DNA of 64,000 nucleotides, from positions 1 through 64,000 of the forward strand of contig JAIQGI010000007.1 of assembly GCA_020072565.1 (NCBI GenBank). The letters are read 5' to 3'. The notes beneath the pieces were generated by a model. The model had not been told where the DNA came from, made no database searches, and saw nothing but the letters and a program-made list of their open reading frames with translations. Positions within the stretch are counted from its first letter, which is position 1, and every line of letters starts with the position of its first letter. Below, piece after piece: positions 48,291 through 56,651 of this stretch. Origin of the DNA: Terriglobia bacterium. GTDB lineage: Bacteria; Acidobacteriota; UBA6911. Made by a program: the position numbers and the translations under genes.

Positions 48291-48464
48291 TCAGAAGGGG
48301 AACGGGTACATGATCCAGCCAACCAGGATCGAGAGGAGAACGAATGAGCCAAAAAGGTAAAGGAAGTATCTGCCTCGCTCTTTTGCACCGCTCTTGGCAA
48401 TGAAGGTGAATACCACCGAAACCAGGGCACTGAATGTGACCAAGAGGAGGAAATGGTTGTTCAT
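48291..48464 (-). CDS. 57-residue two-helix membrane protein
   Basis: A short gene encoding MNNHFLLLVTFSALVSVVF at the N-terminus, a basic turn AKSGAKERGR, then a second hydrophobic stretch (YFLYLFGSFVLLSILVGW) and MYPFPF at the end. Two transmembrane helices with a positively charged loop are clear. GGAGG lies 5 nt before the ATG, and the ATG overlaps the TGA of the upstream membrane-protein gene. The overlap, ribosome binding site and composition argue that it is real. Function unknown; probably a partner of its upstream neighbour. Confidence 0.7.
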   Translation of the reverse strand: MNNHFLLLVTFSALVSVVFTFIAKSGAKERGRYFLYLFGSFVLLSILVGWIMYPFPF

Positions 48465-48889
48465 TGCTTCCTCCCCTGGGCAATATCGAATGCGTCGACT
48501 ACTACGAGCATGTTCAGCAAGCCGGCGGTGTAGACAAAGACATTAGCAAAATCGAACGTATATACCGCGGGATCACCCACGCCGAGACCACGAAGCCAGC
48601 ATAGCCAATACAGCAAGCCATTCCCCGCCTCGGCGATAAATTTGAGCGTGGAAAAAAGATCCGAGAAATCGGGATTATAAAGTCTCCCATTCAAGTAAAG
48701 TCCCAGGGCAAACATCAGGCTGATGCTGCCCATGAAGACCAGTGCCCGGTCCCACTTGCGCAGTATTGCGTGCCCAAGCCCCGGCACCAGCGCTCCGGCC
48801 ACGCAGGCCACGAGTGTTTTCAGAATTCCGGCTTCTGCCGGCAGGGCCTCCACCCTCTGAGGAAATGATTCCATGTCTTCCATGTTCAT
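48461..48889 (-). CDS. Small membrane protein (possibly DUF6677-like)
   Basis: A 142-residue protein with three or four membrane segments. The motif LVPGLGHAILRKWDRALVFMGSISLMFALGLYLNG is typical of TM2-like or DUF5683/DUF6677-like small membrane proteins, which I recall from Acidobacteria; the family name is uncertain. The promoter 10 nt upstream leaves only about 3 nt of leader before the first ATG, with no ribosome binding site. It is followed by the overlapping 57-residue membrane protein. Confidence 0.65.
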   Translation of the reverse strand: MNMEDMESFPQRVEALPAEAGILKTLVACVAGALVPGLGHAILRKWDRALVFMGSISLMFALGLYLNGRLYNPDFSDLFSTLKFIAEAGNGLLYWLCWLRGLGVGDPAVYTFDFANVFVYTAGLLNMLVVVDAFDIAQGRKQ

Positions 48890-48898
48890 AGGTCACAA

Positions 48899-48927
48899 AT
48901 GTTACGGAAAGCTTGTGTTACAGTCAA
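48899..48927 (-). promoter_or_regulatory. Sigma70 promoter giving a near-leaderless mRNA for the small membrane protein
   Basis: Minus strand: TTGACT (48927-48922), 17-nt spacer, TAACAT (48904-48899). Predicted +1 is near 48892, about 3 nt before the ATG at 48889. It is back to back with the pilT promoter. Confidence 0.7.
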
Positions 48928-48957
48928 GGGAAAGGCTTGGCGTCGAAGGGATTCGGC

Positions 48958-48986
48958 TTGACACCCGTAAGCGCCGCACATAACAT
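48958..48986 (+). promoter_or_regulatory. Sigma70 promoter of pilT-recX-alaS
   Basis: TTGACA (48958-48963), 17-nt spacer and TAACAT (48981-48986). Predicted +1 near 48993 gives a 28-nt leader that includes GAGG before the pilT ATG. Confidence 0.75.
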
Positions 48987-49020: not shown

Positions 49021-50148
49021 ATGAATCTTGACACTCTCCTGCGTACAATGGTTTCCAAAGGTGCGTCTGACTTACACTTAAAGGTCGGTGCGTTCCCCCA
49101 TGTGCGCATCGCCGGCGAACTCTTGCCTCTCGGAGAGTTCGGCAAAGTCACCAAGGAAGACAGCCTCATGATGGCCTTCTCCATCATGACCAACAAGCAG
49201 AAACAGCGCTTCCGGGACAACGCTGAGATCGACCTTGGTTATGGACTGAAGGGACATGGGCGCTTTCGTGTCAATGTCTTTCAGCAACGCGGCACAGTTT
49301 CGATTGCGATCCGCGCCGTTCCGGTCAGCATCCTGGGCTTCGAGGACCTTTTTCTGCCCAAGGTTCTGGAGAAAATCTCCAAGGAGCCGCGCGGTCTGGT
49401 GCTGGTGACCGGCACCACCGGAAGCGGCAAATCGACCAGCATCGCCGCCATGCTCAACTACATCAACGAGCAGATGACGCGTCATATCATCACAATCGAA
49501 GATCCCATCGAGTTTCAGCACAACGATCGGCTCAGCATTTTCAGCCAGCGTGAAATATCGGTAGATGCGTCGAGCTTTAGCGATGCGCTGCGCAGCGCCC
49601 TGCGGCAGGACCCGGATGTGATCCTGGTCGGCGAGATGCGCGACCTGGAAACGATCGAAACTGCCCTGCTCGCAGCTGAGACCGGCCACCTCGTCTTCAG
49701 CACGCTGCACACCGTGGACGCCCTGGAAACGATCAACCGCATCATCGCCGTCTTCCCTTCCCAGCAACAGCGCCAAATCCGGCTGCAGCTCGGCATGGTA
49801 CTGCGAGCCGTGGTCTCCATGCGCCTGATGCGGCGGTCAGACACGCGCGGCCGCGTTCCCGCCATCGAGGTCATGATCGTCACTGAGTACATACGGAATT
49901 GCATCCTCGATCCTGAAAAAACACGGCTGATTCGCCAGGCCATCGCGGCGGGAACCTCCCAGTATGGGATGCAAACCTTTGACCAATCCATCCACGAACA
50001 CTACAAAGCGGGCCGGATCACCTACGAGGATGCGCTCAACTACGCCACCAACCCGGATGAATTCAAACTCCGCGTCCAGGGGATCTACACCACCAAAGAC
50101 GCCGCTATCGAAGCAATGGAAAGCGAGCTCTCGGGTCACAGCTCGTAA
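49021..50148 (+). CDS. pilT: Type IV pilus retraction ATPase PilT (PilT/PilU type)
   Basis: A 375-residue hexameric secretion ATPase that powers pilus retraction. It begins MNLDTLLRTMVSKGASDLHLKVG; Walker A GTTGSGKST is near 130-138, the Asp box EDPIEF near 160, Walker B RQDPDVILVGEMRD near 195-208 and the His box TGHLVFSTLHT near 222-232. The C-terminal AIRGYITD-like motif is replaced by IRNCILDPEKTRLI, so PilU-like function is possible. No other pilus genes are nearby. GAGG sits 6 nt before the ATG. Confidence 0.93.
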   Translation: MNLDTLLRTMVSKGASDLHLKVGAFPHVRIAGELLPLGEFGKVTKEDSLMMAFSIMTNKQKQRFRDNAEIDLGYGLKGHGRFRVNVFQQRGTVSIAIRAVPVSILGFEDLFLPKVLEKISKEPRGLVLVTGTTGSGKSTSIAAMLNYINEQMTRHIITIEDPIEFQHNDRLSIFSQREISVDASSFSDALRSALRQDPDVILVGEMRDLETIETALLAAETGHLVFSTLHTVDALETINRIIAVFPSQQQRQIRLQLGMVLRAVVSMRLMRRSDTRGRVPAIEVMIVTEYIRNCILDPEKTRLIRQAIAAGTSQYGMQTFDQSIHEHYKAGRITYEDALNYATNPDEFKLRVQGIYTTKDAAIEAMESELSGHSS

Positions 50149-53418: not shown

Positions 53419-54321
53419 ATGGCTAAAGCAATGCGATTACGGTATTTCTTCGCCCTCACAGCAGCGTTGATCGTCTGCGGATCTCCGATTTGCGCGCAGG
53501 TTTATTCGTACCTGGATGCCAATGGAGTTCGCATCCTCACCAATACCCCACCTGCAGGTCCGGTTTTGGATCTGAGAGTAAACGGGGCGCCGCCGCCCGC
53601 GCCTGCCCCAGCTAAAACGAGCAGCACGACGGTCTCGAAGGCATCCGGTAACGCTGCCAAGGGGAATAGCAGCCGAGCCGCCACCAATGCCGCGCCGGCG
53701 AAGCCGTCCGGCGAGCTTGGTACCGCCCAGGCAGCTTCGTCTTCGCCGTCGGCCGGCCCATCGCAGGAAGACGCGACCGGCTACGATGCGTTCATAGATA
53801 AGTACGCGGGTGAATATGAGGTGGACCCGAAGCTGATCCACTCGATGATTGCGACGGAGTCGGGATACAACTCCAGAGCCGTCTCTCCCAAGGGCGCGCA
53901 GGGCCTGATGCAGCTGATGCCCGATACCGCGTCCCGCCTGGGAGTGCACAACCCGTTTGATCCGGAAGAGAATATTTCAGGCGGCGTCAAGTACATGCGC
54001 ATCCTGCTCGACATGTTTTCATACAATCCTGAGGATAAGCTGATACTAAGCCTTGCAGCTTACAATGCTGGAGAGAACCTCGTACAACGTTTGGGTAGAG
54101 TCCCTGCGATTCGGGAGACTAACGAATACGTACAGAGCATCCTTCAACGTTATGGCAAGAGGAATATGGATGCGGTAACTCCTTCCGCACCAACCGTTGT
54201 CCGGCCTGTGACTTTTCGTTATATCGATGAGAAAGGCGTCCTGGTCTTAACAAACTACCCCCCGGTGCAAAGATCCGGGAATGCCGGCTCAAATGGAGGC
54301 TCAAACTCGAACTTTCGCTGA
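53419..54321 (+). CDS. Secreted lytic transglycosylase (SLT domain) flanked by DUF4124-like segments
   Basis: A 300-residue periplasmic enzyme. After the signal peptide (1-27) comes a DUF4124-like segment (VYSYLDANGVRILTNTPP), an Ala/Pro/Ser-rich linker to about 115, then the SLT domain with catalytic Glu in IATESGYNSRAVSPKGAQGLMQLMPDTA near 148-175 and AAYNAGENLV near 213-222. A second DUF4124-like segment (FRYIDEKGVLVLTNYPP) closes the protein. SLT enzymes cleave peptidoglycan glycan strands to anhydro-muropeptides. GAGGGG 6 nt before the ATG sets the start. Confidence 0.93.
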   Translation: MAKAMRLRYFFALTAALIVCGSPICAQVYSYLDANGVRILTNTPPAGPVLDLRVNGAPPPAPAPAKTSSTTVSKASGNAAKGNSSRAATNAAPAKPSGELGTAQAASSSPSAGPSQEDATGYDAFIDKYAGEYEVDPKLIHSMIATESGYNSRAVSPKGAQGLMQLMPDTASRLGVHNPFDPEENISGGVKYMRILLDMFSYNPEDKLILSLAAYNAGENLVQRLGRVPAIRETNEYVQSILQRYGKRNMDAVTPSAPTVVRPVTFRYIDEKGVLVLTNYPPVQRSGNAGSNGGSNSNFR

Positions 54322-54380
54322 CCTCTTCGTTGCGCCTTCTGCAACTACCTTAGTTTTCAATAGGTTCGCCCAAGTTTTGC

Positions 54381-54409
54381 TTGACACCGGTTTCCGGGGG
54401 GCCTAGAAT
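54381..54409 (+). promoter_or_regulatory. Near-consensus sigma70 promoter abutting the amidase start (leaderless)
   Basis: TTGACA (54381-54386), exactly 17 nt, TAGAAT (54404-54409). The predicted +1 at 54416-54417 coincides with the ATG at 54417. No ribosome binding site exists between the -10 box and the ATG. Confidence 0.75.
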
Positions 54410-54416
54410 ACGGCCT

Positions 54417-56651
54417 ATGATCCTAGCCCAGAACGGGTTGCGACGAAATCGCAACACCCCTCGCCGGCTGGCTATCGGGATCGCTTTCATCCTGAGTTCA
54501 GCCGTTGCTGTGCTCTGCTCGGATTGGGACCTTGAGGGTGCCAAGCTCGCTTGGGCAGAGGCAACACGCCTGCACGAAGCTCTTTCCAGCGCATCCAAAC
54601 CGTCACGTGAAAATTACCTCAAGTGCATTCGGACCTACCAGCAGGTTTACTTCAAAGATCCTCATTACAGTGCCAGCGATGATGCCGTTTTCGAGGCGGC
54701 CAGACTCTACCAAGAAATGGGCGAGAAATTCGGCGATTTGAACTACTTCAGGGATGCCGCGAAACTCTACCGTTTCTTGACTACTGATTACGAGGTCAGC
54801 CCGTTCTGCCCGGATGCGCTGTTGCGTCTGGGGATGATCAGCGAAGGCCTTCTTGGCGACGATCAGGCCGCTCAGAGCGCCTATGAGAAGCTGCGCAAAT
54901 ACTACAAGTACTCGCCGGCAGCGGCATCACTCGCAGCGAGGGCCAGGAGCAAGGAAGTCAAGCCTCCGCAGTTGTCGATCCCCGCACCGGCCGTGACCAC
55001 GACGCTTCCGGCAAGACCGACTGCCGCGCCGTCGGCGACCACGACGCCTGCTGCGAAGCAGACCGCTGCCCCGGTCAAGAGTCCAGACGGCCCCACCGCC
55101 GTCAGGAACATAAGTTTCTCATCCAACAAAGATTACACGAGGGTGAGCATTGTCTCGGGTGGCGAACTCCATTACAACTGGAGCCAGCTGTCGAATCCTG
55201 AGCGCGTCTATTTCGACATCACCAATGCCAGACTGGATTCCAGCCTGACGAACAGGACCTTCACAATCTCTGACAAGTTCGTCAAACAGGTGCGTGTCGC
55301 ACAGAATCGGGTTGACGTCATCCGCGTGGTTCTTGACTTGGCCACCACCGGCGACTATGCGGTCAGGGACGTAAGCGAGGCATTCGGAATCACCATCGAC
55401 ATTGGTACCAAGGGAGTCGTGACGCCGCCGGTGCCGCTTCAAAAGCCCTCCTCCCACGCGGCAATTGCGGTCCAGCCACAGCCTCCCACGGTATCAGCGG
55501 AAGCGAAAGCCCCTCCATTGTCGCCGAAGCCCAAGCAGGAGATTCTGGCGCCCGCCGAGACACGCAATGTCGGCCTCCCGCTAAAGAACGGCTTGGAGCC
55601 GAAGCCATCTGCCGAGAAATCCATGGCAGCAGAGAAGCCTGGTAAAGAGGCGCCGCCTGCTCCTGTTGTGGCACCAAGAGGGACCGCGAACGCTCCGCCA
55701 TCTCCAGTTGCCAAGGAATCAGCTAGGGGGGGCACACCGCCACTTCCGCAGCCGGGGAAAGACGCCCTGCCCCCGGCCGCGCCGGCACCCAAAGAGGCTG
55801 CGAACCCTTCCTCAGCCACAACTGCAAAGGAAGTGACCAAGGCCAGCATTCCACCGGTTCCCGTCTCTCTGGAGCCCGTTCCCATGCCGAAAACAGCCCT
55901 CCCTACCAGCGCGGGAGATCGCACCATGACGCGCATGCTCGGCCTGAAGATCGGTCGTATTGTTCTGGATCCGGGCCACGGCGGTCATGATACGGGCACA
56001 GTCGGCCCCGGCGGCCTCATGGAAAAAGATCTGGTTCTGCAGGTAGCCAAGGAGTTGCAGAAACTCCTGGAGGACAAACTGGGAGCACAGGTGATCCTGA
56101 CGCGCACCGATGACACCTTCATTTCGCTGGAGGAGCGCACGCTGATTGCAAACCAGCAGCAGGCGGATCTGTTTGTTTCTATTCATGCCAATTCCAGCCC
56201 CGCGCGCAATGTCAGCGGCGTGGAGACCTACTTCCTGGACTTTGCGCGCACGGATACAGCTCGGGAAGTAGCGGCCCGGGAAAATGCGACGAGCGACCGC
56301 AACATAAGGGATCTGCAGGACTTGGTTCAGAAGATTGCCCTGGCCGACAAGCAGAAGGAATCCAGGGAACTGGCGTCGATCATTCAAAAGAACCTGTTCA
56401 GCGGGGCGCGAAAGATAATACCTGCATCTCAAAATCGCGGCGTGCGCAGCGCTCCTTTTGTCGTCCTCATCGGAGCACACATGCCGTCAGTCCTGGCCGA
56501 GGTTTCCTTTCTCAGCAATCCTACTGATGAAAGACTGCTCAAAAAAGAGGTCAGCAGGCAGTCTCTTGCTACCGCCTTATTTCATGGCATCGAAGGATAC
56601 ATGAAGTCACTCGGAAGCGCCGTAGCCCAAAATCACTTTCATTCAAATTAG
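54417..56651 (+). CDS. N-acetylmuramoyl-L-alanine amidase with AMIN domain
   Basis: A 744-residue envelope amidase that cuts the peptide stem from MurNAc during cell separation. After a signal-like helix near 20-33, a TPR-like region (about 40-180) is followed by a Thr/Ala/Pro linker, an AMIN domain near 230-320 (VSIVSGGELHYNWSQLSNPERVYFDI), a long Pro/Ala/Lys-rich linker (about 325-500) and the Amidase_3 domain from 512. Zinc ligands and catalytic residues are in LDPGHGGHDTG, EKDLVLQVA, SIHANSS and SVLAEVSFLSNPTDE. The ATG at 54417 coincides with the predicted transcription start. Confidence 0.93.
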   Translation: MILAQNGLRRNRNTPRRLAIGIAFILSSAVAVLCSDWDLEGAKLAWAEATRLHEALSSASKPSRENYLKCIRTYQQVYFKDPHYSASDDAVFEAARLYQEMGEKFGDLNYFRDAAKLYRFLTTDYEVSPFCPDALLRLGMISEGLLGDDQAAQSAYEKLRKYYKYSPAAASLAARARSKEVKPPQLSIPAPAVTTTLPARPTAAPSATTTPAAKQTAAPVKSPDGPTAVRNISFSSNKDYTRVSIVSGGELHYNWSQLSNPERVYFDITNARLDSSLTNRTFTISDKFVKQVRVAQNRVDVIRVVLDLATTGDYAVRDVSEAFGITIDIGTKGVVTPPVPLQKPSSHAAIAVQPQPPTVSAEAKAPPLSPKPKQEILAPAETRNVGLPLKNGLEPKPSAEKSMAAEKPGKEAPPAPVVAPRGTANAPPSPVAKESARGGTPPLPQPGKDALPPAAPAPKEAANPSSATTAKEVTKASIPPVPVSLEPVPMPKTALPTSAGDRTMTRMLGLKIGRIVLDPGHGGHDTGTVGPGGLMEKDLVLQVAKELQKLLEDKLGAQVILTRTDDTFISLEERTLIANQQQADLFVSIHANSSPARNVSGVETYFLDFARTDTAREVAARENATSDRNIRDLQDLVQKIALADKQKESRELASIIQKNLFSGARKIIPASQNRGVRSAPFVVLIGAHMPSVLAEVSFLSNPTDERLLKKEVSRQSLATALFHGIEGYMKSLGSAVAQNHFHSN

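Follow-up and report, generated by a model that had tools for sequence, protein, structure and literature searches.

A conserved promoter predicted to make the mRNA of an acidobacterial N-acetylmuramoyl-L-alanine amidase leaderless

The 64-kb stretch of DNA analysed here (the window) belongs to the genome of an uncultured acidobacterium, G000, with an assembly of 7.46 Mb, and carries an amidase gene whose ATG lies 95 nt downstream of a gene for a lytic transglycosylase, also on the plus strand. The locus comprises the following features.

53419–54321, plus strand: SLT lytic transglycosylase (DUF4124 + SLT; Pfam PF01464, PF13511)
54348–54368, plus strand: conserved 21-bp AT-rich element, CCTTAGTTTTCAATAGGTTCG, separated by 12 nt from the −35 hexamer of the amidase
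54381–54386, plus strand: −35 hexamer TTGACA, read from the sequence and kept in 12/12 orthologues
54404–54409, plus strand: −10 hexamer TAGAAT, read from the sequence and of the form TAnnnT in 12/12 orthologues
54417–54419, plus strand: ATG start codon, its A being the predicted +1; distance to the −10 hexamer 6 or 7 nt in 12/12 orthologues
54417–56651, plus strand: N-acetylmuramoyl-L-alanine amidase of 744 aa with signal peptide, AMIN and Amidase_3 (Pfam PF11741, PF01520)

Pfam scores (PF01520, Amidase_3, E=1.7e-52; PF11741, AMIN, E=7.1e-13) place the protein among the AMIN/Amidase_3 enzymes. Signal peptide, AMIN, and Amidase_3 are common to this protein and to AmiC-type Amidase_3 enzymes with AMIN; by comparison with these the protein is ordinary, and the interest lies in its promoter and start geometry alone.

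The two hexamers are separated by a 17-nt spacer, CCGGTTTCCGGGGGGCC, and seven nucleotides—ACGGCCT—lie between TAGAAT and the ATG at 54417. This TTGACA-N17-TAGAAT arrangement ahead of the ATG had been described in the first-pass annotation and is correct to the base. Promoters in this analysis were predicted from the consensus only; the sequence matches 11 of 12 consensus bases and is the only sigma-70-like promoter found between 53.2 and 54.9 kb. Exact TTGACA-N17-TANNNT matches occur twice in the window as opposed to 0.08 expected from shuffling, and the layout ahead of the amidase ATG is not due to chance. With the last T of the −10 hexamer numbered −7, either 54416 (T) or 54417 (A) would be +1. 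The initiator T(−1)A(+1) is preferred, so that the A of the start codon is the natural choice, and a pyrimidine at −1 followed by an A makes the start codon the most likely site of transcription initiation. Shine–Dalgarno (SD) motifs of the type GGAG, GAGG, or AGGA are absent at −18 to −4 relative to this ATG. A G-run at 54396–54401, considered as an SD, was rejected: it is too distant from the ATG and not conserved. RNA folding gives unpaired probabilities of 0.97–0.98 for the first two bases, A and U, of the initial AUG in the G000 message. A hairpin follows the ATG in G000 (z −2.9); its shape is not conserved across orthologues, and no function is claimed for it.

The family set consists of 15 genomes, in 12 of which, representing four genera, the 5′ end of the amidase gene is readable. 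All 12—G000 and 11 relatives—share the layout of −35 hexamer, spacer, −10 hexamer, and ATG. The −35 hexamer is TTGACA in ten and TTGACT in two, the spacer measures 17 nt except for one of 18 nt, the TAnnnT hexamer ends 6 or 7 nt before the start, the preceding base is C or T, and the start codon is ATG without exception. Mean information content amounts to 1.89 bits per column in the −35 hexamer and 1.50 in the −10 hexamer versus 0.46 in the spacer. Each of the 12 orthologues has a −10 box 6–9 nt before the start with a matching −35, as a leaderless mRNA would require. The absence of a ribosome binding site, claimed earlier for the ATG at 54417, extends to every orthologue: an SD occurs in 0/12, when about 47% of the ATG starts called in G000 have one (p about 5e-4). 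Sequence, position, conservation, lack of an SD, and exclusive use of ATG are thereby observed directly. The leaderless reading is well supported because the distance between promoter and ATG is kept while the letters between them drift. Judged by this pattern of conservation, selection maintains the arrangement throughout the family.

The best explanation, which we regard as very probable and which bears out the leaderless mRNA proposed in the first-pass annotation, is that the amidase has its own sigma-70 promoter, from which transcription begins at 54417, the A of the start codon, so that the main mRNA is leaderless. Where the 5′ end lies, that sigma-70 is used, and how the ribosome binds are inferred as follows. 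The amidase's own promoter would set the start of transcription at this A. The main message would begin 5′-AUG, devoid of a leader and an SD, and the ribosome would bind the 5′-terminal AUG directly, by the leaderless route.

Three other accounts were weighed against this explanation. A mixed mode of expression, in which a leaderless primary transcript is accompanied by substantial read-through from the SLT gene and the same ATG serves both messages, is compatible with the explanation above and is a tentative possibility. A terminator was sought between the two genes and none was found, so that read-through across the 95-nt gap could carry the amidase, and in more distant Acidobacteria the amidase and SLT genes abut or overlap in an operon-like fashion. 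The longer transcript, however, would contain no SD to support internal initiation at the amidase ATG. It is very unlikely that the promoter is real but translation begins at the downstream TTG at 54438, behind a 21-nt leader. This codon is in frame and would give a shorter, more typical signal peptide, yet no SD precedes it, it is buried in a hairpin in G000 (unpaired probability ≤0.01), and five relatives (G001, G002, G005, G010, and G012) have no further start codon from the ATG up to the signal-peptide core. Slightly less credible still is translation from the in-frame TTG at 54381, or from another upstream codon, on SLT read-through with the promoter-like sequence being incidental: the upstream frame is open in G000 and no terminator separates the genes, but the TTG of the −35 hexamer does not share the frame of the ATG in 5/12 orthologues (G006, G007, G011, G012, and G014), conservation around it tracks promoter columns rather than codons, and it lacks a preceding SD. 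A real start should stay in frame, and TTG 54381, raised earlier as a start that would overturn the leaderless reading, is therefore refuted as a conserved start. The ATG at 54417 is thus the best start, given an upstream TTG that leaves the frame in five orthologues and a downstream TTG that is SD-less, held in a stem, and without counterpart in several relatives.

Upstream of this promoter, the 21-bp AT-rich element has the family consensus CCTTAATTATCAATAAGTTCT. The distance of 12 nt to the −35 hexamer applies to G000 and most relatives, with the element lying further off in G001. Allowing up to 2–3 mismatches, it is present at the amidase in 8 genomes and in only three other places in the 15 genomes. 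The element is a candidate UP element or regulator binding site; a role as a general regulon motif was rejected, as it occurs almost only at the amidase and is nearly single-copy in each genome of the family. In G001 (L020), the amidase promoter looks tandemly duplicated (TTGACTGGACTACCGCCGGGTCTGA / TTGACACGACATACCGTCGGGTCTAAA), and the upstream element is displaced by about 25 bp.

How widespread such promoters are was examined in a 2.05-Mb sample of G000, taken in stretches, with 1,477 genes called by a simple dicodon model. A plain TANNNT scan before the called gene starts of this sample gave no peak, and leaderless initiation is therefore not the dominant mode in G000. The signal appears only when a −35 is required (5/6 matches, spacers of 16–18). 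Under this requirement, gene-linked ATGs after the −10 number one at 0–5 nt, set in sharply at 6 nt, and are seen at 6–10 nt; 11 fall at 6–8 nt versus 4.1 per three positions further down (Poisson p about 0.004). Five strict leaderless sites at gene starts were found in the 2.05 Mb, and about 47% of starts carry SD motifs. Across the 15 genomes, the strict pattern TTGACA-N16-18-TANNNT is followed by 143 ATGs at 6–8 nt, compared with 57 at 2–4 nt and 93 at 12–14 nt, while GTG at 6–8 nt amounts to 68. A scan of the whole G000 genome for −10 boxes close to starts, suggested in the first-pass annotation, gave 21 instances of TTGACA-N16-18-TANNNT-N6-8-ATG against 2 of the reversed pattern. The ATG position counts and the comparison of ATG with GTG indicate, at the level of sequence, that the leaderless class in these genomes is real but small and prefers ATG. 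Raw counts of the strict pattern overstate this class, since several matches are tiny ORFs rather than real gene starts.

A second case within the window is found on the opposite strand.

48461–48889, minus strand: DUF6677 membrane protein (Pfam PF20382), predicted to be leaderless or to have a leader of 0–3 nt
48899–48927, minus strand: its promoter, TTGACT (48922–48927), N17, and TAACAT (48899–48904), with 9 nt to the ATG at 48889; read from the sequence and its orthologues

Of the DUF6677 orthologues examined, 11/12 have the promoter TTGAC[TG]-N17-TAA[CG]AT-N9-ATG, the bases ahead of the start codon being pyrimidines; in the twelfth, from G001, ATGs stand at 4 nt and at 10 nt. The gene had been cited as another example alongside the amidase, and it stands as a conserved case with a predicted leader of zero or a few nucleotides, differing in its TTGACT hexamer and its N9. 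This near-leaderless promoter and that of pilT lie back to back (48899–48986). The pilT promoter (TTGACA-N17-TAACAT, 48958–48986) is the other exact match of the window and is predicted to precede an ordinary leader, with GAGG before the ATG at 49021.

Two further genes keep strict leaderless promoters across the family: that of a CDP-alcohol phosphatidyltransferase, sampled in nine genomes, and that of HslV, sampled in six. The remaining sites in G000 belong mostly to regulators (PadR, MarR, LysR, ribbon-helix-helix, and NtrC-type) and toxin-antitoxin genes, plus Mrp; for Mrp and many of the regulators and antitoxins, the leaderless promoter occurs in single genomes. Self-repressing leaderless regulators are a usual pattern. 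The amidase would accordingly be one of a small leaderless gene set in the clade, together with the CDP-alcohol phosphatidyltransferase, HslV, DUF6677, and many regulators and antitoxins. The earlier suggestion that several envelope genes of this organism are leaderless holds insofar as three membrane or envelope genes—and only three—were found among these cases, namely the amidase, the phosphatidyltransferase, and DUF6677. It fails as a mark of envelope proteins: cytoplasmic HslV and Mrp are leaderless examples as well, the strict sites of G000 lie mostly at regulators and toxin-antitoxin genes, and leaderless starts are not concentrated in envelope genes. The set is not an envelope-specific programme. 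Several strict promoters (G000:C21:110064, C43:34087, C54:28984, and C21:72136) share a palindromic TTGACAATGCATTG(TC) overlapping the −35 box, which looks like a candidate common repressor operator.

Outside the family, 14 amidase loci with readable 5′ ends were available from other families of the class. A leaderless promoter is convincing only at that of G015, of family f2 (TTGACT-N17-TACAGT-N6-ATG), the other 13 having none at that position. The leaderless amidase promoter looks like a feature of the G000 family and perhaps of f2. A family-level trait is indicated because other families mostly lack it and because distant Acidobacteria show the abutting or overlapping gene order. No other genome of the class is as dense in strict sites as G015, with 42 in 8.1 Mb (5.2 per Mb) and none in the reversed control, which suggests that leaderless starts are much commoner in f2. 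Many of these sites end in TA[AC]AATCGG with an ATG close behind. A rather speculative and improbable scenario is that leaderless initiation became fixed in the clade at a handful of core envelope genes (those of the amidase, the CDP-alcohol phosphatidyltransferase, and DUF6677) after the amidase had left the SLT operon; the upstream element would add dedicated control, and translation would be kept when SD-dependent initiation is limited.

Leaderless initiation as such is already recognised. Zheng et al. 2011 (PMC3160421) surveyed 953 bacterial genomes and reported TA-led genes, presumed to be leaderless, in 207 of them, Acidobacteria included, and in the Gram-negative Sinorhizobium meliloti 171 leaderless start sites, all AUG, have been mapped (PMC3616915). 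The premise behind the remark on Gram-negative envelope genes in the first-pass annotation, that leaderless mRNAs are unexpected in Gram-negative bacteria, is contradicted by these two reports, which describe them in many. The amidase shares with the TA-led genes a TANNNT about 10–12 nt before the start and the lack of an SD. That study, however, made a genome-wide statistical call over many phyla, whereas the present case concerns the arrangement at one gene, conserved across orthologues and belonging to a small class. In contrast to the AUG-start leaderless mRNAs of S. meliloti, mapped by RNA-seq, the amidase message is predicted from DNA sequence. Among the papers searched, there was neither a leaderless amidase nor a set of mapped acidobacterial transcripts, and the amidase is, on comparative grounds, a well-supported new instance. 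It provides a clean case, by comparison alone, of a leaderless start under selection in a phylum for which hardly any transcripts have been mapped, and it shows one gene as leaderless in some families while others lack such a promoter. Start-codon annotation based on SD motifs will misplace leaderless genes of this kind.
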